This document shows positions 9,871-18,832 of a stretch of 64,000 bases of DNA, piece by piece. A model generated the notes under the pieces. It saw only the letters and a list, made by a program, of their open reading frames with translations. It was not told the DNA's origin and did no database searches. The translations under genes were made by a program, and so were the position numbers. This stretch comes from an uncultured Pluralibacter sp. (GTDB lineage Bacteria > Pseudomonadota > Gammaproteobacteria > Enterobacterales > Enterobacteriaceae). Position 1 is the first letter of the stretch, and each line of letters starts with the position of its first letter. The stretch spans positions 1 to 64,000 of the forward strand of contig NZ_CAJYMB010000059.1 in assembly GCF_913775985.1 (NCBI RefSeq), given 5' to 3'.

Positions 9871-10007
9871 AGTAATACCAGTGTAAGGAGAAACGGGCGT
9901 GATTATGCGCGCGGTTAACGGCGGCTGCTTTGTTGAGGGTCAAGGGATGGGGCGAAATACTGGATGCCACGACAGTGTACAACCGAGACACCCGCGCCTG
10001 TTGATTG

Positions 10008-10019
10008 ACAACGTTGTAA
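10008..10019. promoter_or_regulatory. Operator of the LacI-type regulator (autoregulatory site)
   Basis: ACAACGTTGT (10008-10017) is a perfect palindrome followed by AA, about 85 bases before the LacI-family start. The same core appears in two sites ahead of the divergent sugar operon at 17070-17152. The shared motif in both promoters of one locus supports it as the operator of the regulator encoded here. Confidence 0.72.
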
Positions 10020-10100
10020 ATGCCAATCATATTACTCTTTAGCGTCGCATAACGAATGCGCAGCGCGCATGCTACAACGCTGAATCCAGAGGAGATCAAC

Positions 10101-11159
10101 GTGCAGGACAAAAGCAGTGAAAGCAAGAAGGTCACTATCAAATCCATCGCTGAGGCGTTGAATATTTCGTTCTCGACGGTATCAAAGGCGCTAAATAATA
10201 ATCCGGTAATCAAATCCGATACCCGTCAATTAGTGATCGACAAGGCCCAGGAGATGGGATACACGCCAAATTCACTGGCTAAAGGGCTGCGCGGAAGTTC
10301 CACTAAAACCATTGCAATCATCTTTAATGACATTGAAAACCCGGTGCTGACCTACGTCTTTCGCGATATCTCAATCCGTATGGGTGAGCACGGCTATACG
10401 ACCATGATTTTTGACTCGCAGTTTAACGAGCAGACCGAGCGGGCCAACATCCTGACGGTGCTTTCGCGGGTGCCTGATTTCATTATTCTCGAGCCGGCGA
10501 CATTCAACAGCCCCAATCTGGACCTGCTGCAGAACATGGCCGACAGAGTCATCATCCAGGGTGCGCGCTCCCCCCATCTCAACAGCCACCATGTGCATGT
10601 GGACTATACCAACGGTGGATATATGGCTGCTGTTGAGCTGCTATCAAAGGGCCACAAAGAGTGCCTGGTGATCTCCGAAAGTCTCGATTTCCCTACCAGC
10701 CATGAGTTTGTACGCGGCGTGGAAAAGGCATTTGCCGACTATAACCTGACGCTGCGCCCTGAACAGATTGTCTCCAGCCATTCGTCTATCGCTAACGGCT
10801 TTCGTATCATGCAACAGCTGTGGGATAGCGAAGCGCAGCGCTGGGCATTCCCGCTGACCGGCGTGCTGACCTTTGATGATAATTTCGCCTTTGGCGTTTA
10901 TAAAGCGGCGGCCCACTTTAACCTCAAGATCCCCGACGATCTCAGCGTGATCGGCTTCGATGATAATCCGCTCTCGGCATTTTCGATGCCGCCGCTCACT
11001 ACTGTGCATTTACCCAAGGAGAAAATGGCAGAATATCATCTGAGTATTATTAATACTATTTTGCTCAAAAAACGGCGCGAGATTTGTATCTATTCCACCG
11101 ATCCAGTTCTGATCCCGCGAGGTTCAGTAAAAAACCTTATTGGTAGTCGGCACCCGTAA
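10101..11159 (+). CDS. LacI-family transcriptional regulator of the adjacent sugar cluster
   Basis: A 352-residue LacI/GalR repressor. The N-terminal helix-turn-helix and hinge are clear (TIKSIAEALNISFSTVSKAL, then an NSLAKGLRG hinge segment), followed by a periplasmic-binding-like sensor domain ending in IPDDLSVIGFDDNPLSAF. The GTG start at 10101 is chosen because AGAGGAG lies at 10088-10094; the frame is open to 10056 without such a site. It is followed by a sugar kinase on the same strand. The inducer is unknown but is probably the cluster's substrate or its phosphate. Confidence 0.88.
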   Translation: MQDKSSESKKVTIKSIAEALNISFSTVSKALNNNPVIKSDTRQLVIDKAQEMGYTPNSLAKGLRGSSTKTIAIIFNDIENPVLTYVFRDISIRMGEHGYTTMIFDSQFNEQTERANILTVLSRVPDFIILEPATFNSPNLDLLQNMADRVIIQGARSPHLNSHHVHVDYTNGGYMAAVELLSKGHKECLVISESLDFPTSHEFVRGVEKAFADYNLTLRPEQIVSSHSSIANGFRIMQQLWDSEAQRWAFPLTGVLTFDDNFAFGVYKAAAHFNLKIPDDLSVIGFDDNPLSAFSMPPLTTVHLPKEKMAEYHLSIINTILLKKRREICIYSTDPVLIPRGSVKNLIGSRHP

Positions 11160-11272
11160 TTATCCGGAGGGGCCGCCCCCTCCACTTCACTTTTAATCAA
11201 TATCCAGAACCACGCCGTATAATTATTAAAAAATAACATTGAAATACACCTTACATTAATTCGGAGAAATTG

Positions 11273-12769
11273 ATGAACATTCTTACTATCGATCTTGGCA
11301 CTACCAATATAAAAGTCTCGGTTTATGACCGGCAACTTTCACCGCTGGTCACTCTGTCCGAAGGGGTGAATTATCATCGCGCAGGCGATATCGTCGAGTT
11401 TGATCCCGAGCGCTATTTTACGACAATTACAGCGATGATGACCGCCGCTGCTGCACAGGCCCGGCGGACCAATGGCCGCGATATTGTTCAGGTGGTGCTC
11501 ACCGGCCAAGCCGAATCGCTGATTGTGCTCGACGGCAACGGACTGCCGCTTCGTCCGGCCATTTCATGGCTGGATATGCGATCCCGCGAAGAGTGCGCAG
11601 AGCTGTCGGATATTTTCGATGCGCAAAAAAGCTATCGTATCACCGGTCAACCAGAAATTATTCCCACCTGGCCAATAACAAAAATACTGTGGCTCAAGCG
11701 TCACGAAAAAGAGACTTTTGCGCGTGCAGCTCATTATCTATTGCTGAAAGACTATATTATTCTCAGACTTTCTGGACGTATCGTTGGTGATTACTCAATT
11801 TACAGCTTCTCTTATTATTTTAATATTACCGAAAAGCGCTACTGGCCAGAAATTCTCGACTACTGTGGTATTCACGATACTCAGCTCCCCGCCCTGCTGC
11901 CCCCCTGCACGATAGTCGGGCCGCTGGTGCCTGCACTGGTCGATCCAGCCTGCGGGCTGACGACCGCGACCAAAATCAACATCGGTACGCTCGACCACTT
12001 TGCCGGTATGATCGGCACCGGCAATATTCGCGAAGGTATCGTCAGCGAATCTGCCGGTACGGTGCTGTCGCTGGCGACGCTGGTAAAGGAGCCGGTGTTC
12101 AGTCAGGGCCGCCTGCCGCTCAATTGTGGTCCCTTCCCCGATAGCTACGTGCTGCTGCCGGTATGCGAAAGCGGTGGCTTTAGCCTTGAATGGTACAAGC
12201 AGACCTTTTTGCCCGATTGCAGCTTTGGCGACATCAACGCGGCCGCGGCGCAGCGAAACTCTGCTTCAATACCTATTTTTCTGCCCTACCTTACCGGTAT
12301 CAACGCCCCGGACTTCAACGAGCACGCGTCGGGCGTCTTCTTCGGCATTCGCGCCAGCCACACCCGCGATGATTTTTCTCTGTCGATCATGCAGGGAGTA
12401 GCCTGCCTGCTGCGAAAAAACATCGACTATATGGAACAGGCAGGAATTCAAATTGAAAAAATTATTTCCGTTGGCGGTGGCGCCCGCTCGGCGCTGTGGA
12501 CGCAGATAAAATCCGATCTCACCCAAAAAAGTGTCAGTGTCCCTGTGAACGAAGAAGCGGCCTGCTTTGGCGCAGCCATTATTGCCGCCGTTGACGAGGG
12601 CTATGTATCTTCTTACGCTGCGGCGGCCGAGGAGCATATCGTCCTCAAAAAGAGTTTCACCCCCGCTCCCCACGAGCACCATGAACATACTTATGCCGTA
12701 TTTAACTCACTCTACGAGGCTCTCGCGCCGGTATATGCCCTGAACGATAAAACCCGCCGTGGCGGGTAA
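11273..12769 (+). CDS. FGGY-family carbohydrate kinase
   Basis: A 498-residue sugar kinase of the FGGY superfamily (xylulokinase/glycerol kinase fold). The first ATPase lobe starts with LTIDLGTTNIKVSVYD; GTLDHFAGMIGTG gives the region with the catalytic Asp, and VGGGARSALWTQ is the second adenosine motif. GGAG precedes the ATG. It would phosphorylate a ketose or polyol delivered by the MFS permease of the facing operon. Given the TIM-like and xylose-isomerase-like partners, a tetrulose or similar short ketose is plausible, but this is inference. It is cotranscribed with the LacI regulator gene. Confidence 0.87.
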   Translation: MNILTIDLGTTNIKVSVYDRQLSPLVTLSEGVNYHRAGDIVEFDPERYFTTITAMMTAAAAQARRTNGRDIVQVVLTGQAESLIVLDGNGLPLRPAISWLDMRSREECAELSDIFDAQKSYRITGQPEIIPTWPITKILWLKRHEKETFARAAHYLLLKDYIILRLSGRIVGDYSIYSFSYYFNITEKRYWPEILDYCGIHDTQLPALLPPCTIVGPLVPALVDPACGLTTATKINIGTLDHFAGMIGTGNIREGIVSESAGTVLSLATLVKEPVFSQGRLPLNCGPFPDSYVLLPVCESGGFSLEWYKQTFLPDCSFGDINAAAAQRNSASIPIFLPYLTGINAPDFNEHASGVFFGIRASHTRDDFSLSIMQGVACLLRKNIDYMEQAGIQIEKIISVGGGARSALWTQIKSDLTQKSVSVPVNEEAACFGAAIIAAVDEGYVSSYAAAAEEHIVLKKSFTPAPHEHHEHTYAVFNSLYEALAPVYALNDKTRRGG

Positions 12770-12776
12770 ATGGTAA

Positions 12777-12804
12777 CGTTCCGCCGGCGAGTGCCGGCGG
12801 AACG
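12777..12804. terminator. Bidirectional hairpin between convergent kinase and permease genes
   Basis: CGTTCCGCCGGC and GCCGGCGGAACG form a perfect 12-base stem with a GAGT loop in the 46-base gap between the two convergent operons. There is no long T run, so it is a likely but not certain terminator for both directions. Confidence 0.65.
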
Positions 12805-12815
12805 ATTAAACAGGA

Positions 12816-14087
12816 CTAAAGCAAAGATGCAGACTGACTGGCTGGCGTGTTTTTCTCATATTCAGGCTCATCGAGCAGGTTAGTAATTAACGCACCGACG
12901 AGATAGATTGCGGCGATAATGATCGTTACCCCGCCGCCGCCCACGCTATTAATGAACAGACCAACAATCGCCGGTCCGAGAAAGACCGCCAGCCCGGTGC
13001 CTAAATTAAGTACCGACATTATCGCCCCCTTATCCTTTTCCACCAGGTTGGCGGACATAGCATCAAGCGGTATATAACCCGCGACGCCGGCGCCCCACGC
13101 CAGGCTAATGGCAAAGATAACGCCGTAATTAGCGCCGACAAACTGGGGGGCAAAATAGAGCATCAGCGATGCCACAGCAGTCAATACTCCCCCACACCAG
13201 ATAATCGTGCGTTTGTGGCCTATCTTATCCCCCACCACGCCCCACACCAGGTTAAAGATAATATTACTGATAAATGCTGCGCCCCAGATACTTAACCATT
13301 CCGGTGTAGTAAACCCCTGCGCAATCATATAGGCAGGAAGGTAAACCGGGAACGCGTACTGCGAAAGCGAGTTCACGATACGAAGAATGCAGGAGATTGA
13401 AAGCTTCGGATAGACGCGCAGTATAGTCAGACCGCGCAGCACCTCTTTAACACTTTGCGAAGCGCTGTGGTTGTGGGCTGGCTTAATATCATCGCGGTTC
13501 ACCACCAGCACTAAAACAGCCCCGAAAGCAAAAAAGATCAGCGTACTCCACAGAGTATTAACCTGGCCGAGGTTGTCCACTGCCAGGCTGGCATAAAAGT
13601 TAGCCAGCACCTGCATACCACCGGAAAAAACAAAATAGAACCAGCCATAGGCCGTACTCAGGCGATGTGCCGGGCTGCGGTAGGCTATCCACACAGAAAA
13701 GGCATAGGCAAACAGCGGATAGCCGAATCCTTTAAGCGCCTGCATCAGTAGCAGTACCGGATACGACATCTCTTTCAGGCCCAGCACGATAAATCCTACT
13801 GTGCCGGCAACGCAGAAAAGGGTACCCAGAAACATGGTTCGCTTCGCACCAAACGTTTCGAAAAAGACGCCGGCAAACCAGGACGAAAGCGCCACGGCGA
13901 TGCCGTAGACGCTAAACAACGTCGATATTTGCTGAATGCTCATCCCCCTCTCTTCGAGGAAAGGGCTCAGCCACCCCAGCTCTACACCGCAGCCGATCAT
14001 AAAGATCAGAACGCCAAGAAAACTCCATGACATGGTTCCCGGAATCCCTATCCTATCCAAAAAACCTTGCTGTACATGATTTGTCAT
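12816..14087 (-). CDS. MFS transporter, polyol/ribitol-type permease
   Basis: A 423-residue major facilitator protein with about twelve membrane segments. It contains the MFS loop motif in FETFGAKRTMFLG and GDKIGHKRTIIW. The N-terminal half resembles the RbtT/DalT ribitol and arabinitol permeases of Klebsiella in length and in the FMIGCGVELGWLSPFLEE region. It is the last gene of the five-gene operon running from 17050 and would import the substrate of the cluster. Substrate specificity is inferred from family resemblance and context only. Confidence 0.85.
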   Translation of the reverse strand: MTNHVQQGFLDRIGIPGTMSWSFLGVLIFMIGCGVELGWLSPFLEERGMSIQQISTLFSVYGIAVALSSWFAGVFFETFGAKRTMFLGTLFCVAGTVGFIVLGLKEMSYPVLLLMQALKGFGYPLFAYAFSVWIAYRSPAHRLSTAYGWFYFVFSGGMQVLANFYASLAVDNLGQVNTLWSTLIFFAFGAVLVLVVNRDDIKPAHNHSASQSVKEVLRGLTILRVYPKLSISCILRIVNSLSQYAFPVYLPAYMIAQGFTTPEWLSIWGAAFISNIIFNLVWGVVGDKIGHKRTIIWCGGVLTAVASLMLYFAPQFVGANYGVIFAISLAWGAGVAGYIPLDAMSANLVEKDKGAIMSVLNLGTGLAVFLGPAIVGLFINSVGGGGVTIIIAAIYLVGALITNLLDEPEYEKNTPASQSASLL

Positions 14088-14222
14088 CTTAAACCCTCAC
14101 TACGCTTATTCTGGATGCAGGTTATCGCCACCAGCCGAGGCTGGCAGATAAATAGATATATATTCAGGTGCGAGGCAAAGTGCGGCTATACGTCAATAGC
14201 CGCATTCGTCACGTTTATTTCA

Positions 14223-14999
14223 TTAGAAGCAGGTGTAGGCACCGTCCACGCGGAAATCCGCGCCGGTAGTATATGAACTCATATCACCCGCCAAATAGAC
14301 GGCAATCGCTTCCAGCTCTTCGGGTTTACCCATGCGCTTAACAGGAATTAGTTGTTCCCACTGATTTATAAGCGGTGCAAGACTGGGATCATTTAAGGTC
14401 ATTTCGGTCGCCATATAGCCGGGACTAATGGTGTTGACGCGCACATTTTTGTCAGCCCACTCTACTGCCATATTGCGCGACATTGCGATAACGCCCGCTT
14501 TTGACGCCGCGTAGGAGCACTCTTTCTGCGGGATATTAGTGATGTGTGCCGACATGGAGGCGGTATTAATGATGGAGCCGCCCCCCTGGCGAATCATAAC
14601 TCTACCAGCAGCCTGCGCCGTCAGGAACGTGCCGTTCAGGTTGACGTTAATAACTCGCGACCAGTCATCAAGATTGTCCTCCTCTACCGGTACCGTGTGG
14701 CCAATACCGGCATTGCAGAAAGCAATATCCAGCCTGCCGAAAGCGCCGAGAATGGTTTCCATCATGGCGTTAACCTGCTCGGGACGGGTAATATCGGTTT
14801 TGATTGCCAGGGTATTTACCCCGGTTGCGGCGGCGATTTCCCCCGCGGTCTTCTCTGCTTCGTCCAGATCTACGTCTACGATAGCCACATCAGCACCAGC
14901 TTCGGCAAGGGCAATCGCCAGACGTTTACCAATACCGCGTGCGCCGCCGGTGACAAAGCTCTTTTTACCGTCGAGTCTCATTTTTTCTAAAATACCCAT
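14223..14999 (-). CDS. SDR-family polyol/ketose oxidoreductase
   Basis: A 258-residue classical short-chain dehydrogenase. It shows the cofactor motif TGGARGIG, the NAGIG motif, active-site Ser in INTASMSAH and the YAASK catalytic pair. Asp residues after the second strand (VDVDLDE) favour NAD(H). It lies in the operon after yjbQ-like and before the permease gene. It probably oxidises the imported polyol to a ketose, as in sorbitol and arabinitol dehydrogenases, but substrate is unknown. Confidence 0.87.
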   Translation of the reverse strand: MGILEKMRLDGKKSFVTGGARGIGKRLAIALAEAGADVAIVDVDLDEAEKTAGEIAAATGVNTLAIKTDITRPEQVNAMMETILGAFGRLDIAFCNAGIGHTVPVEEDNLDDWSRVINVNLNGTFLTAQAAGRVMIRQGGGSIINTASMSAHITNIPQKECSYAASKAGVIAMSRNMAVEWADKNVRVNTISPGYMATEMTLNDPSLAPLINQWEQLIPVKRMGKPEELEAIAVYLAGDMSSYTTGADFRVDGAYTCF

Positions 15000-15020
15000 T
15001 GGGTTATCCTCTTATTCGTT

Positions 15021-15518
15021 TTATTGCCCAAGAATTTGAACGCGTACCGTGCGCGAACGCGCGCGGGTCTGGTCCATATCTGAAAAGTAGATACGTCCGA
15101 ATTCACCTAGCGTCATTTCGCCATTGACGACCGGAATAGTTTCAGAGCGCCCGAGAATCACCGAACGCAGATGACCGTCGGTATTAAGCATCCATTCGGA
15201 TTTCTCATCGCGCAGCGTCCTGGCTCGCTCGGTGTGAACCGGGCCCGGATGCAGGTACTGGCCTTCGTGCTGGCAAGTCGGGATGATCTTTTCCAGTACG
15301 TTAATGGTGTCTTGCAAAATCAGAGGGATGTTTCTGTAGGTCACATCCTCGGAGTCTTCCTGAATAAACACAGTGCAGCTGGTGTGCTGTGAGAAAACAG
15401 TCACAATGCCGTCTTTCACACCGGACTTGTGCAGAATCGCCTGTACCTGGTCAGTCACATCGTCAAAACTGATCGCGGCGCCGGTTTCCACACCGATGAT
15501 TTCATGTAAAATTTTCAT
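15021..15518 (-). CDS. YjbQ-family protein (UPF0047)
   Basis: A 165-residue YjbQ/UPF0047 protein with the family signatures VFSQHTSCTVFIQE, HPGPVHTERA, LNTDGHLRSVILG and YFSDMD. The conserved His, Asp and Glu residues suggest a metal site. The E. coli relative has weak thiamine-phosphate synthase activity in vitro, but its true role is unsettled. Here it starts three bases after the upstream TIM-like gene ends and sits inside a sugar-phosphate operon, which suggests a catalytic role on a sugar phosphate rather than thiamine. Confidence 0.85.
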   Translation of the reverse strand: MKILHEIIGVETGAAISFDDVTDQVQAILHKSGVKDGIVTVFSQHTSCTVFIQEDSEDVTYRNIPLILQDTINVLEKIIPTCQHEGQYLHPGPVHTERARTLRDEKSEWMLNTDGHLRSVILGRSETIPVVNGEMTLGEFGRIYFSDMDQTRARSRTVRVQILGQ

Positions 15519-15521
15519 GCC

Positions 15522-16241
15522 TTATTTATCCTTACAATATGTTCTTTCTCGCCATGCCTGCGCGGCAGCGGCGATCATCGCCTCCAGCATGACAAAGGCA
15601 TTTTCTGCCTGCAGAATGCCGCTGGTCGACCCCGTTGCTTCGGCCCCTGCTCTGATAATTTCATATACGTCGGCCTGATCTTTGATACCCGCGCCGTGCA
15701 GCACTCGCGCTGCGGGATTCACAGCATTTACCGCCGCATTAATGGCGACAATTTCTGCCGTGTCCTGCGGACCACGCTGACCTTTGCCAATCAGCGCCGG
15801 CGACTCCGCCAGGACAATATCGGTCCCCAGGCATGCGACCGCAGCGCTTTCACGGCTGTCTCCAGCACATACCAGCGTCATCAGTCCAACCTCTTTTGCC
15901 CGCCTGATGGTCTCGGCCAGAACCGCAAGCGACAGCTGCTTCTCAGCGTGGTTGAGCAATACGCCAACCGCGCCGGCATCCACGAGCGCCTCGGGCAAAA
16001 CCGCGCCAACACCTCGTCCCGGCGCAACGGGATCCATATGCTGAGCAAATACTTTGATGTGCCGCGTCGCCGCAGCAATGGGTGCGATATCGGTGTACTG
16101 CGCGGTAAAAATAATGTCGACGCCGTACAGGGCCGCCACACGGTCTGCCTCCAGTGCCAAATCCAGCACCTGCTGGCCGTAGAGATAGACCTTCGGCCCA
16201 ATCTCAAAAAAGGGTGTTGTTAGCATGACAGGCTGGTACAT
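15522..16241 (-). CDS. Triosephosphate-isomerase-like sugar-phosphate isomerase
   Basis: A 239-residue TIM-barrel protein of the triosephosphate isomerase family but clearly not the housekeeping enzyme. The usual catalytic set can be matched: Lys in FEIGPKVYLYGQQ, His in VLLNHAEKQLS and Glu in VLAESPALIGKG, where the canonical AYEPVWAIGTG motif is altered. The fit is to the LerI/EryH group, which converts L-erythrulose 1-phosphate to D-erythrulose 4-phosphate. ATG at 16241 has GGGTG upstream; a GTG at 16250 would overlap the preceding gene. The substrate is inferred. Confidence 0.82.
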   Translation of the reverse strand: MYQPVMLTTPFFEIGPKVYLYGQQVLDLALEADRVAALYGVDIIFTAQYTDIAPIAAATRHIKVFAQHMDPVAPGRGVGAVLPEALVDAGAVGVLLNHAEKQLSLAVLAETIRRAKEVGLMTLVCAGDSRESAAVACLGTDIVLAESPALIGKGQRGPQDTAEIVAINAAVNAVNPAARVLHGAGIKDQADVYEIIRAGAEATGSTSGILQAENAFVMLEAMIAAAAQAWRERTYCKDK

Positions 16242-16246
16242 ATCGA

Positions 16247-17050
16247 TCACCCAATCAGCTTTTTCAAGAATTCAGCCGTTTGCGGCAGCGTCTGGCGCGG
16301 ATCGCCACAGGTACTGCACTCAAGGCTGACAAAGCCGCTGTAGCCGATCGCTTTCAGGGCCTCAAAACCGGCCTGCCAGTCAATGGCACCGCGTCCAGGC
16401 AGCAGGCGGTTGTTGTCGCCCAGATGCACGTGTTTCACCGAATCAGCGACATAGCGCAGGCTCTCTGCAATATTCGCTTCTTCAATAGACATGTGGAAAA
16501 AGTCTGCCAGCACGCCCGCATTGCTGAAGGTCAACTTATCGGTTAGATCTTTGCACTGCTTAATGCTGTTGAGATAGGGACTTTCGTAGCGGTTGATGCC
16601 CTCCAGTAGCATATAGCCGCCAGTGCCGGAGAGCGGTTCAGTCACTTCCTGATACATCTCAATGAAGGCCGCTTCTTCCTGACCCGTCATTTCACGATAG
16701 GGATGAAAAAGCGGTAGCGGATCCTGGGCGCCGTAGGCAAACTCGAGTTCGGTAACAGCATTCAGCTCACCGGCGATACGGGCCGCCAGCTTGTACATTT
16801 CACGGCTCCTGCGGCGTAAATCTGGATCGGGGCTCATCAGGTGTCCGTAGATACCGTCTCCGAAGGCAAATTCGCAAGGCTTCACGCCGGTTTTATCTTC
16901 CAGCGACAGCACTTCTTCGTGCAATTCGTCATTCCACTCGCTGTAGTTCATAAACAGCGCGATACCGTCAAACCCCCACTGGCGCAATAGATGGGCTTTC
17001 TCAGTCAGGCTGCTTCCGGGCAACATAAGATTGGCACAAGAAATTTTCAT
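16247..17050 (-). CDS. Xylose-isomerase-like TIM-barrel sugar epimerase/isomerase
   Basis: A 267-residue AP-endonuclease-2/xylose-isomerase-like barrel. Metal-binding residues typical of tagatose-3-epimerase-type enzymes appear as Glu in MLLEGINRYE, Asp in VLADFFHM, His in KHVHLGDNN and Glu in VSLECS. It is the first gene of the operon; the ATG at 17050 follows GGAG, and the frame is also open to 17071. Two regulator palindromes precede it. It probably interconverts epimers of a ketose or ketose phosphate handled by the TIM-like partner; substrate unknown. Confidence 0.82.
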   Translation of the reverse strand: MKISCANLMLPGSSLTEKAHLLRQWGFDGIALFMNYSEWNDELHEEVLSLEDKTGVKPCEFAFGDGIYGHLMSPDPDLRRRSREMYKLAARIAGELNAVTELEFAYGAQDPLPLFHPYREMTGQEEAAFIEMYQEVTEPLSGTGGYMLLEGINRYESPYLNSIKQCKDLTDKLTFSNAGVLADFFHMSIEEANIAESLRYVADSVKHVHLGDNNRLLPGRGAIDWQAGFEALKAIGYSGFVSLECSTCGDPRQTLPQTAEFLKKLIG

Positions 17051-17069
17051 ACTAGTATCTCCGATTAAC

Positions 17070-17089
17070 AATTTACAACCTTGTAAATT
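17070..17089. promoter_or_regulatory. Operator 1 of the sugar operon
   Basis: AATTTACAA-CC-TTGTAAATT is an inverted repeat with nine-base arms, about 20 bases before the first gene of the operon. Its ACAA/TTGT core matches the site ahead of the LacI-type gene and the second operator at 17133-17152. Confidence 0.75.
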
Positions 17090-17132
17090 TTTATTATTGA
17101 AAAACCAGCTTAAAAGATGACGTTCAATTCAA

Positions 17133-17152
17133 TAATTACAACGTTGTAATTA
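17133..17152. promoter_or_regulatory. Operator 2 of the sugar operon
   Basis: TAATTACAACGTTGTAATTA is a perfect 20-base palindrome with the same TTACAACGTTGTAA core as the site before the LacI-type gene. Its centre is 63 bases from that of operator 1, about six helical turns, which would allow a repressor tetramer or two dimers to bind the same face. Confidence 0.78.
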
Positions 17153-17367
17153 GAATCTGCAAAAAATTTGTAATAGATATGTTTCTTCAGGCCTTTTTCG
17201 TCAAGAAAAATAATCACGAGAGAGACTTTTTAGATCTGTTTTGTGGCCTGAATCGAATTAGCTTCGGGATATCGGAGGGGAAAGGATTACTCAATCGCAC
17301 TTCCTTACGTAAAGCAGCACCCGTTTATAGCCAATAGATCAGCAGTGACGTAAGGCAGAAAGGGAAG

Positions 17368-17396
17368 AAGCGCGCTGCAAACCAGGCCGCGCGCTT
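17368..17396 (-). terminator. Terminator of araE
   Basis: On the minus strand AAGCGCGC pairs with GCGCGCTT around a 13-base loop, followed by CTTCCCTTTC. It lies 15 bases after the araE stop. The 338-base gap between 17050 and 17411 holds this hairpin and the two operators but no gene. Confidence 0.6.
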
Positions 17397-17410
17397 TATA
17401 TGAAACGGTC

Positions 17411-18832
17411 CTAGCTATTACCGAGGTCCCGCAGCTTCTTGCCGGCCATCAGGTTTTTCTCGATATGTTCCAGGGTGACGTTTTTGGTTTCCGGCACCAG
17501 ATAGATAGTGATGACGATAAACAGCAGGTTAAAGCCGGTGTACAGCCAGAAGGTTCCGGCGGCGCCGATGCTGCCCAGCAGCGACAGGAAGGTGGCGCCG
17601 ATGATCATGTTTGCCACCCAGTTGGTGGTGGTCGAGCAGGTAATGCCGAAGTCGCGGCACTTGAGCGGCTGGATCTCGGAGCACAGGATCCACACCACCG
17701 GCGCGGCGCTCATGGCGTAGCCGCCGATGCACAGCATGGTCATGCCGACAGATACCCAGGAAAGTCCGCTAGAAACGTCTCCTTCCCCGGCCTTCATCAG
17801 GCAGTAGCCCAGCACCAGCGTGGCGAAGGCCATCACCGAGAAGCCAATTTTGAGAATCGGTTTGCGCCCGGCTTTATCCACCGTGAAGACGGCGATAAAA
17901 GTGGCAAACATAAAGGTCAGGCCGACCACCACCGTGGCAATCATCTGCTGGTGGGTGCTGGCGAACCCGGCCATTTTGAAGATCTGCGGGGCGTAATACA
18001 TGATGATGTTCATCCCGGTAAACTGCTGCATCCCCTGCAGCAGCATGCCGAGGAACACCGCCCGGCGGACGTTCTTATTACGCTTGAACAGGGTAAAGCC
18101 GCCCTGCTTCATGCTCAGGCTTTCACGAATCTCGTTAAGCTCCTGGCGTGCTTTTTCCGAGGTATCGCGCAGCATCCGCAGCACCTCTTCCGCTTCAACA
18201 TGCAGCCCTTTTGCCGCCAGCCAGCGCGGGCTGTTGGGCAGGAAAATCACCATCAGGAACAGAATCACCGCCGGGATCGCCAGCACGCCAAGCATCGCCC
18301 GCCAGTTACCGCTGTAGCTAAACGCAGTATCCGAAAGAAAGGCCACCACGATGCCGAAGGTGATCATCAGCTGGTAGAGGCTGATCATTTTGCCGCGCAC
18401 GTCTTCCGTGGCCATTTCCGACAGATACAGCGGCGCGGTGTAAGAGGCAATGCCTACCGCCACGCCCAGCAGCACGCGGAACAGCAGCAGCAGATCGAGG
18501 CTGGTGGCGAAGGCCGATCCGAGCGAGCCGATAATAAACAGCACCGCGCCCGCCATCAGGCTGTACTTGCGGCCCAGCCGATGCGATACCCAGCCGTTGC
18601 ACACCGCGCCGAGGGCCGCACCGAGCATCATGCTGCTCACCACCCACTCCTGCTGGTGGCTGGTAAGGCTGAAATGATCGGTGATAAACGGCAGCGCGCC
18701 GGCGATGACGCCGATGTCGAGACCAAACAGCAGGCCCGCCAGCGCCGCTGAGACGGAGATAAACAGATTCATTTTCCGGGCTTTTTGCCGGTGCTGGTGG
18801 TTAATCTCCAGCGCGTTATTCACATGAGACAT
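17411..18832 (-). CDS. araE: L-arabinose:proton symporter AraE
   Basis: A 473-residue MFS sugar porter with twelve membrane segments. It aligns by eye over its full length with E. coli Ara[18 protein letters not shown] near the start, the sugar porter motifs GRKYSLMAG and [29 protein letters not shown] in helix 7, and the [12 protein letters not shown] end. It imports L-arabinose with protons. An AraC half-site and a CRP-like site precede it, as in E. coli. It is transcribed alone. Confidence 0.95.

Follow-up and report, generated by a model that had tools for sequence, protein, structure and literature searches.

The closest described systems for the catabolism of short sugar alcohols are the bacterial tetritol pathways. 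As outlined in PMC10733421, the tetritol route leads through a dehydrogenase, a kinase, the 3-epimerase EryC, LerI and DerI to erythrose-4-phosphate; LerI moves the carbonyl of L-erythrulose-1-phosphate to give D-erythrulose-4-phosphate, from which DerI makes erythrose-4-phosphate, and the EltD/LerK/LerI/DerI pathway of Mycolicibacterium performs two consecutive tetrulose-phosphate isomerisations after the kinase and dehydrogenase (PMC10733421). The EryABC-EryH-EryI pathway of Brucella and rhizobia, which also ends at erythrose-4-phosphate, contains an FGGY kinase, a dehydrogenase, a 3-epimerase of the AP_endonuc_2 (AP2) type, an isomerase of the triosephosphate isomerase (TIM) family and one more isomerase. 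The galactitol and D-altritol routes of Agrobacterium, in work of Wichelecki from 2015, reportedly use a short-chain dehydrogenase/reductase (SDR) and then a D-tagatose-3-epimerase-type barrel acting on the free ketose, with no TIM-like or YjbQ step. Here, we analyzed a window of 64,000 nucleotides (the whole stretch under study) from an uncultured Pluralibacter sp. and found in its region 10005-17150 a single regulon under LacI control. In it, an altered archaeal-type TIM appears to work together with a protein of the UPF0047/YjbQ family. The regulon would work like the erythritol/threitol pathways but with non-orthologous enzymes, and it is not a member of that group.

Comparison with the described pathways

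Eight intact open reading frames (ORFs) lie between positions 10056 and 18832 according to the ORF list and the Pfam and NCBIfam assignments (Table 1). Five gene classes named in the original prediction, namely an FGGY kinase, an RbtT-like permease, an SDR, a TIM-like isomerase and an epimerase-like barrel, were all recovered at their predicted places with agreeing family assignments. What that prediction had overlooked is the yjbQ gene, located between the SDR and TIM-like genes, which is the most informative gene of the set. Where the Ery pathway has EryB, EryH, the RpiB-like EryI and a SorC-type regulator, the cluster has an SDR, an archaeal-type TIM-like enzyme, YjbQ and a LacI regulator, respectively. 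The barrel and EryC share 24-26% local identity (E 2e-5 to 4e-5), which places them in the same superfamily only; the kinase is 25% identical to EryA, the TIM-like enzyme is about 30% identical to EryH over 72-116 residues, and no significant match was obtained between the SDR and EryB or between YjbQ and EryI. Compared with the Mycolicibacterium pathway, the cluster has an FGGY kinase in the place of the DAK-type LerK, a TIM-like enzyme unlike the solved L-erythrulose-1-phosphate isomerase type, and no DerI/RpiB. As had been predicted, an RpiB-like DerI is missing from the cluster, with no PF02502 domain among the eight proteins scanned. A tblastn search with a single EryI query (E≤1) matched one of 71 TIM-like loci (L088), and the window was not among the matches. 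The earlier view that the gene set differs from the known erythritol and threitol operons is supported.

In one Shinella genome, a window-type cluster occurs together with an ery-type locus that has EryH- and EryI-like genes (gene names were assigned here, EryB by eye). Five TIM-family genes are present in Shinella sp. H4-D48 (G063; L143, L144 and L145 on plasmid p1). Besides the window-type cluster, this genome has two EryH-like genes next to EryC-like ones, and one of the two belongs to an ery-type locus.

The operator and the recurrence of the gene set

The 14-bp palindrome TTACAACGTTGTAA marks both promoters of the cluster, one in front of lacI-kinase and one in front of the epimerase operon. 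With up to two mismatches allowed, all three of its sites in the window are at these two promoters, and as many sites were found in 0 of 100 shuffles. When five genomes (G000, G060, G061, G062 and G064; approximately 25 Mb) were scanned with at most one mismatch, 3, 3, 2, 2 and 3 sites were detected, respectively, all 13 of them at the cluster, while a reversed control pattern gave 0, 0, 0, 1 and 0 sites. The same operator is also present in the matching spacer of five clusters from Paenibacillus, Lachnoclostridium, Clostridiales and Providencia (L003, L004, L005, L006 and L008). No further enzyme under TTACAACGTTGTAA was seen in the five-genome scan, and the regulon looks closed and self-contained. 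The downstream sugar porter has no operator copy at its start, and was therefore left outside the regulon, to which it is probably unrelated. In Paenibacillus tianmuensis (L003:12684-13090), an extra operator-like site with one mismatch precedes pieces (90-92% identical) of an almost identical second SDR gene, a decayed duplication at the regulon edge.

A contig scan with the TIM-like protein returned 10 loci. Eight of them hold the window-type set, giving nine clusters with the window, which span two phyla and four classes; in the other two (L010 and L011) the TIM-like gene has different neighbours. The eight clusters belong to two Paenibacillus, a Lachnoclostridium metagenome-assembled genome, a Clostridiales bacterium, two Shinella, Providencia vermicola and Pararhizobium arenae, and their identities to the window are 72-88% for the SDR, 64-74% for YjbQ, 52-70% for the AP2 barrel, 62-69% for the TIM-like enzyme and 52-65% for the kinase. 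A LacI gene is present in six of the nine clusters (60-66% identical in the five other than the window) and the permease in four (73-74% identical). Since the set recurs in nine clusters and the operator is confined to the cluster in five genomes, the grouping of these genes is not due to chance.

The TIM-like gene was detected (E≤1e-40) in 3 of 394 genomes of the window's order, its own included, the other two having it together with class II aldolase, Gat-type phosphotransferase system (PTS) and YjbQ genes. The corresponding counts were 1 of 297 in the order of Shinella G063 (G063 itself), 4 of 398 in the class of Paenibacillus G060 (G060 included) and 48 of 391 in Clostridia, the class of G061 (G061 included). 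Among 60 relatives, counting the own genome, the TIM-like query matched 22 at E≤0.001; the own gene scored 510 bits and all others 18-36 bits, the level expected of ordinary TIMs. The regulon has probably spread horizontally. Its GC content (0.48-0.55 over 10-18 kb, versus 0.60-0.63 over 6-10 kb and 0.58-0.70 over 18-23 kb) fits acquisition from elsewhere without proving it, and low values were also observed at 5-6 kb (0.48) and 23-24 kb (0.43). Megablast of positions 9900-17400 against E. coli genomes gave no match; the same stretch matched 10 plasmid records, all partially and best in Shinella, and the TIM-like protein matched 16 plasmid records. In Shinella sumterensis (L031:2807-8082), a DAK-type kinase (Dak1/Dak2), which might be an erythrulose-type kinase, and a sugar ABC transporter are encoded on the opposite strand a few kb upstream of the window-type cluster.

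The archaeal-type TIM-like enzyme

The TIM-like enzyme scores above the cut-off of the archaeal-type TIM model NF003302, and its best solved relatives by sequence are archaeal TIMs (1hg3 of P. woesei, E 2.9e-40, 41% identity). The solved L-erythrulose-1-phosphate isomerase 11ef matched no better than ordinary TIMs (E 0.0044, 16% identity). Fold comparison with an AlphaFold2 model (pLDDT, the predicted local distance difference test score, 88.5; 10 sequences) gave Z 29.3 and a root-mean-square deviation of 2.2 over 220 residues for 1hg3, and Z 22.5 and 2.2 over 212 residues for 11ef, which was tied with ordinary TIMs; all of the 50 fold matches listed are TIMs or L-erythrulose-1-phosphate isomerase. 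For the tree, the truncated row L120 was dropped, 40 of the remaining 75 rows were used, and clade labels had been assigned from motifs before tree building. In this quick search with SH-aLRT (Shimodaira-Hasegawa-like approximate likelihood ratio test) support, clades a (97), b (100) and d (98) each formed one group and c was not one clade, and the EryH-like rows joined canonical TIM, separated from every TIM-like row (100). Judged from these comparisons, the enzyme belongs to the archaeal-type TIM branch and not to LerI/EryH.

The original prediction had pointed to the LerI/EryH type and had proposed a structure-based search for the nearest homologues; with archaeal TIMs on top of that search, this part of the prediction is contradicted. 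The same evidence bears on the idea that the enzyme is a divergent LerI/EryH and that the cluster is an erythritol/threitol operon whose parts are poorly conserved. The kinase, dehydrogenase, AP2 epimerase and TIM-family isomerase do match Ery role by role, and Asn11 is lacking on both sides; against this stand the separation of EryH from the TIM-like rows, the low Ery identities and the missing EryB and EryI matches. We consider this explanation very improbable: as homology it is contradicted by the tree, the fold comparison and the Ery searches, and as chemistry it is part of our main explanation.

The catalytic residues of TIM are Asn11, Lys13, His95 and Glu165. In the TIM-like enzyme, Lys20, His101 and Glu149 (E149 being TIM's Glu) are invariant in 10 sequences, and the Asn11 position is Gly in clade a, so that Lys, His and Glu of the archaeal-type catalytic set are kept and Asn is not; the predicted alteration of an active-site loop is thus borne out. 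An alignment of loop 1 from 70 TIM-like genes, L141/L142 and four references has Gly (Ser in two) at this position in clades a-c, and Asn is kept in clade d; in two Shinella loci, the EryH-like proteins have Ser. Because Asn11 is missing from the EryH-like proteins too (Ser in place of the Gly seen here), tetrulose-phosphate-like chemistry remains plausible for the TIM-like enzyme by analogy. The enzyme shares sequence family (PRK04302) and fold with archaeal TIM, but differs in the replacement of Asn11 by Gly, in altered loops 6 and 8, in its sugar-cluster setting and in the presence of a canonical TIM elsewhere. A full-length canonical TIM (277-332 bits) was found in all eight genomes tested and in the window's own genome; the TIM-like enzyme is an extra family member beside it.

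Association of the TIM-like and YjbQ families

Gene neighbourhoods were compared in 54 fetched regions, which cover the 58 Clostridia matches without the split G315 pair and without G061 (already present as L005), and in three from Bacilli; adding the window and 11 named loci gave 69 loci with 70 TIM-like genes, near-duplicates L004 and L012 being left out. A YjbQ-family gene was present in the fetched stretch for 62 of the 70 TIM-like genes, within 1.5 kb for 60, and adjacent and co-directional for 48. Independently of distance, a short-YjbQ profile (A2, E≤1e-20; both E-value limits were our choice) was applied to 391 Clostridia genomes, two draws being taken as the same genomes because the listed handles agree. 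Both genes were found in 47 genomes, the isomerase alone in one (G399), YjbQ alone in none and neither in 343. It is therefore strongly supported that the archaeal-type TIM paralogue and this YjbQ subfamily are partners.

The pair occurs in four contexts, with family names taken from representatives and annotations: (a) AP2, SDR and FGGY genes, as in the window; (b) an AraA-like isomerase, an amidohydrolase and FGGY; (c) FGGY, a KpsF-like SIS isomerase, a fucose-isomerase-like protein and, frequently, an FSA-type aldolase; and (d) a class II aldolase with PTS or SorC genes. The longer YjbQ (200 aa or more) adjoins SIS in 17 adjacencies. Twelve Clostridia loci (L095, L096, L099, L101, L102, L104, L109, L111, L112, L113, L115 and L118) have two YjbQ genes, one short (~165-180 aa) and one long (~206 aa or more) in 11 of them and both short in L102; the long ones are often beside a KpsF-like SIS, as if there were one YjbQ per isomerase. 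Four other TIM-like loci (L105, L114, L119 and L121) encode a DRL-type oxidoreductase (PF21135; representative L119:10272-11570, 210 bits), a family linked to branched-sugar chemistry. Three of the four also have a class II aldolase, some neighbours resemble glucitol PTS subunits by eye, and our guess is that these loci handle a branched polyol, e.g., methylerythritol or apiitol. A 497-aa protein (L091:8558-10048 and eight other loci; cluster c11) recurs beside fucose-isomerase, FGGY, SIS, TIM-like and YjbQ genes; it matched nothing in Pfam at 1e-5 or in NCBIfam at 1e-10. Class II aldolase, TIM-like and YjbQ genes were also found on Enterococcus and Lacticaseibacillus plasmids (L028, L029 and L030), two of which have adjoining PTS IIA/IIB/IIC genes and were typed as conjugative.

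These contexts bear on another explanation, with the TIM-like enzyme as one more ordinary triosephosphate isomerase and an aldolase-like or auxiliary role for YjbQ: a ketose-1-phosphate would be cleaved to dihydroxyacetone phosphate and an aldehyde, and the former converted to glyceraldehyde-3-phosphate. The intact Lys/His/Glu, the true archaeal TIMs as closest solved relatives, and the clade d pair that has kept Asn11 beside a class II aldolase would all agree with it. However, no aldolase family was found among the eight proteins scanned or brought in by a further operator site in the five genomes, a canonical TIM is already present in every genome tested, Asn11 is lost in clades a-c, and an aldolase role for YjbQ is opposed by clade d loci that hold both YjbQ and a class II aldolase. 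This explanation thus seems unlikely to us.

The YjbQ subfamily of sugar clusters

We know of no settled function for UPF0047/YjbQ. The family is widespread, with members in 10 of 14 control genomes and nine distinct solved sequences matched. The cluster protein exceeds the cut-offs of both PF01894 and TIGR00149, the models of this family ('secondary thiamine-phosphate synthase'), but the subfamily is tied to sugar clusters and has two extra stretches (~7 and ~15-20 residues) relative to four ordinary YjbQs of the same genomes; an ordinary YjbQ is additionally present in six of seven genomes tested. In the window type, the second stretch carries QYLHPGxxH, which was not found in those four proteins. 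The extra stretches, including Y-x-[HY]-P-G, were observed in all 18 aligned cluster YjbQs, the motif being variable in clades b and d. The window-type stretch has invariant Cys, Glu, Gln, Tyr, His, Pro, Gly and His, and the polar residues are constant in 11 sequences, which suggests a part in catalysis or ligand binding rather than scaffolding only. According to PMC7954711, multicopy yjbQ relieves an E. coli pdxB lesion, with a suggested entry into the B6 pathway upstream of SerC (PMC7954711). Such an entry point would lie near four-carbon phosphates, which is an outside hint in favour of the pathway proposed below. The listed titles and abstract beginnings from the open-licence literature contain no account of this cluster or of a sugar role for YjbQ, which is weak evidence of absence.

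Proposed pathway

From gene content, operators, conservation, co-occurrence and kept residues, we infer the reactions, their order, the substrate and the chemistry of YjbQ. A polyol would be imported by the RbtT-type permease and oxidised to a ketose by the SDR; the barrel would epimerise the ketose at C3, and the FGGY kinase would convert the 3-epimer to a ketose phosphate. The TIM-like enzyme and YjbQ would then catalyse two successive carbonyl shifts from this ketose phosphate to a sugar phosphate of central metabolism. With a C4 substrate, L-erythrulose-1-phosphate would be turned into D-erythrulose-4-phosphate by the TIM-like enzyme and into D-erythrose-4-phosphate by YjbQ; with a C5 substrate, a ketopentose-1-phosphate would be walked to a D-ketopentose-5-phosphate. 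This scheme of a short-polyol regulon is tentative as a whole, with chances just short of even.

The early steps are suggested by the epimerase-like barrel, the SDR, the XylB-like kinase and the pentitol-family permease, and this gene set supports the originally predicted sequence from polyol to ketose, ketose phosphate and an isomer. Ketose 3-epimerases have the metal ligands Glu-Asp-His-Glu plus an active-site His and Arg, all of which are present in the barrel (eight sequences; alignment with TM_0416), where E157, D190, H193, H216, R222 and E251 are invariant. Its best solved relatives are TM_0416, which we take to be IolO, followed by sugar 3-/4-epimerases. Since the regulon looks closed, its end product should be something that ordinary metabolism takes up, and since no other gene with the operator was found, the last two genes should carry the ketose phosphate to a central metabolite. 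Every role has a candidate, and YjbQ matches the role that is left without a familiar homologue; it was therefore placed in the slot of the RpiB-like EryI/DerI.

For the substrate, a C4 tetritol is slightly favoured, with a C5 pentitol next. C4 is suggested by the precedent with two isomerases and by the missing Asn11, a loss shared with the EryH-like proteins; C5 is suggested by the XylB-like kinase and by the pentitol-type permease, which exceeds its subfamily cut-off. We judge it improbable that the substrate is an unusual polyol, such as a branched or deoxy sugar alcohol, instead of a straight C4/C5 chain: this would suit the lack of a characterised close homologue and the four related loci with a DRL-type oxidoreductase, but no such oxidoreductase was seen in seven window-type loci, and the permease is of the pentitol family.

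The same pathway could also run with YjbQ as a mutarotase, a phosphatase or an assembly partner of the TIM-like enzyme, and with housekeeping RpiA/RpiB performing the last isomerisation. Presence/absence statistics cannot separate a sequential enzyme from a partner subunit, and clear RpiB-family scores were obtained elsewhere in five of seven genomes, so that the last step need not be catalysed by YjbQ. On the other hand, the Pararhizobium genome G065 has the cluster and no RpiB-family match in the genome sequence used, G000 has only a weak partial match of 65 bits (the search covered RpiB), and the invariant polar residues in the extra stretch of 11 sequences speak for more than an accessory role. 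We regard this possibility as rather doubtful.

Besides these RpiB-family enzymes, several observations weigh against the two-isomerase scheme. No characterised close homologue was found for any enzyme of the set, and the substrate assignment is tentative because the kinase (293.8 versus 380.25 bits for the XylB equivalog TIGR01312), the SDR (below every NCBIfam equivalog cut-off, considering the best 25 of 233 families) and the barrel (122.2 of 300 bits for IolO and 93.1 of 300 for psicose 3-epimerase) all score below equivalog cut-offs. For two of the clusters from Shinella and Pararhizobium (L007 and L009), the stretches checked do not contain this operator. For eight of the 70 TIM-like genes, the fetched stretch holds no YjbQ (one of these loci is that of G399; the other seven genomes carry a short-type YjbQ outside it), and the Fisher p value of 3e-60 for co-occurrence in Clostridia is uncorrected for shared ancestry. 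The TIM-like/YjbQ pair also occurs beside class II aldolase and PTS genes, where two carbonyl shifts are less obvious. Finally, the AlphaFold2 model of YjbQ is poor (pLDDT 60.7; 11 sequences), and the only YjbQ activities claimed, to our knowledge, are weak thiamine-phosphate synthase activity and the pdxB bypass.

A wider proposal is that the sugar-cluster YjbQs are a new class of sugar-phosphate isomerases, which with the TIM-like paralogues (and, in Clostridia, a KpsF-type SIS) form a modular 'carbonyl-walking' system. A ketose would be phosphorylated at C1 and its carbonyl moved stepwise until the chain is read from the other end, yielding an ordinary D-ketose phosphate or erythrose-4-phosphate. 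This generalisation is possible, on the doubtful side. A role of the SIS protein as 6-phospho-3-hexuloisomerase was also considered, but the one representative scanned is nearer to the KpsF/GutQ/KdsD arabinose-5-phosphate isomerases (118 versus 48 bits; NCBIfam); the hexose form of the carbonyl walk is weakened by this result.

Features of the locus

Table 1. Genes and LacI-type operators of the cluster and the adjacent sugar porter, in window coordinates.
Feature	Position	Strand	Remarks
LacI-type operator TTGACAACGTTGTAAA	10005..10020	no strand	Palindrome, 5' of lacI-kinase
LacI-family regulator	10056..11159	+	PF00356 39.6 bits, PF13377 79 bits; alternative start 10101
FGGY carbohydrate kinase (predicted ketose kinase)	11270..12769	+	PF00370/PF02782
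RbtT/DalT/CsbX-family major facilitator superfamily (MFS) polyol permease	12816..14087	-	TIGR00897 470.4 bits, cut-off 375
SDR polyol dehydrogenase (predicted)	14223..14999	-	PF13561 219.8 bits
UPF0047/YjbQ protein, sugar-cluster subfamily	15021..15518	-	PF01894 99.5 bits (cut-off 27), TIGR00149 90.1 (cut-off 67.75)
Archaeal-type TIM-like isomerase, Asn11 -> Gly	15522..16250	-	NF003302/PRK04302 166.7 bits, cut-off 132
Ketose 3-epimerase-like barrel (AP_endonuc_2)	16247..17071	-	PF01261 104.3 bits; likely ATG 17050
LacI-type operator TTTACAACCTTGTAAA	17072..17087	no strand	5' of epimerase operon
LacI-type operator ATTACAACGTTGTAAT	17135..17150	no strand	Perfect palindrome, 5' of epimerase operon
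Sugar-porter MFS	17411..18832	-	Pfam/NCBIfam; outside regulon

Significance

The almost perfect tie between the YjbQ subfamily and the TIM-like enzyme inside sugar operons provides a tight and testable biochemical hypothesis for one branch of UPF0047, and the window-type cluster, with five enzymes under one operator, is the smallest and cleanest setting found for it. The cluster also suggests that a tetritol-type logic with two isomerases may have arisen at least twice, from different parts. If true, carbonyl walking would be a general bacterial way to channel polyols and sugars that are rare or L-configured into central metabolism.

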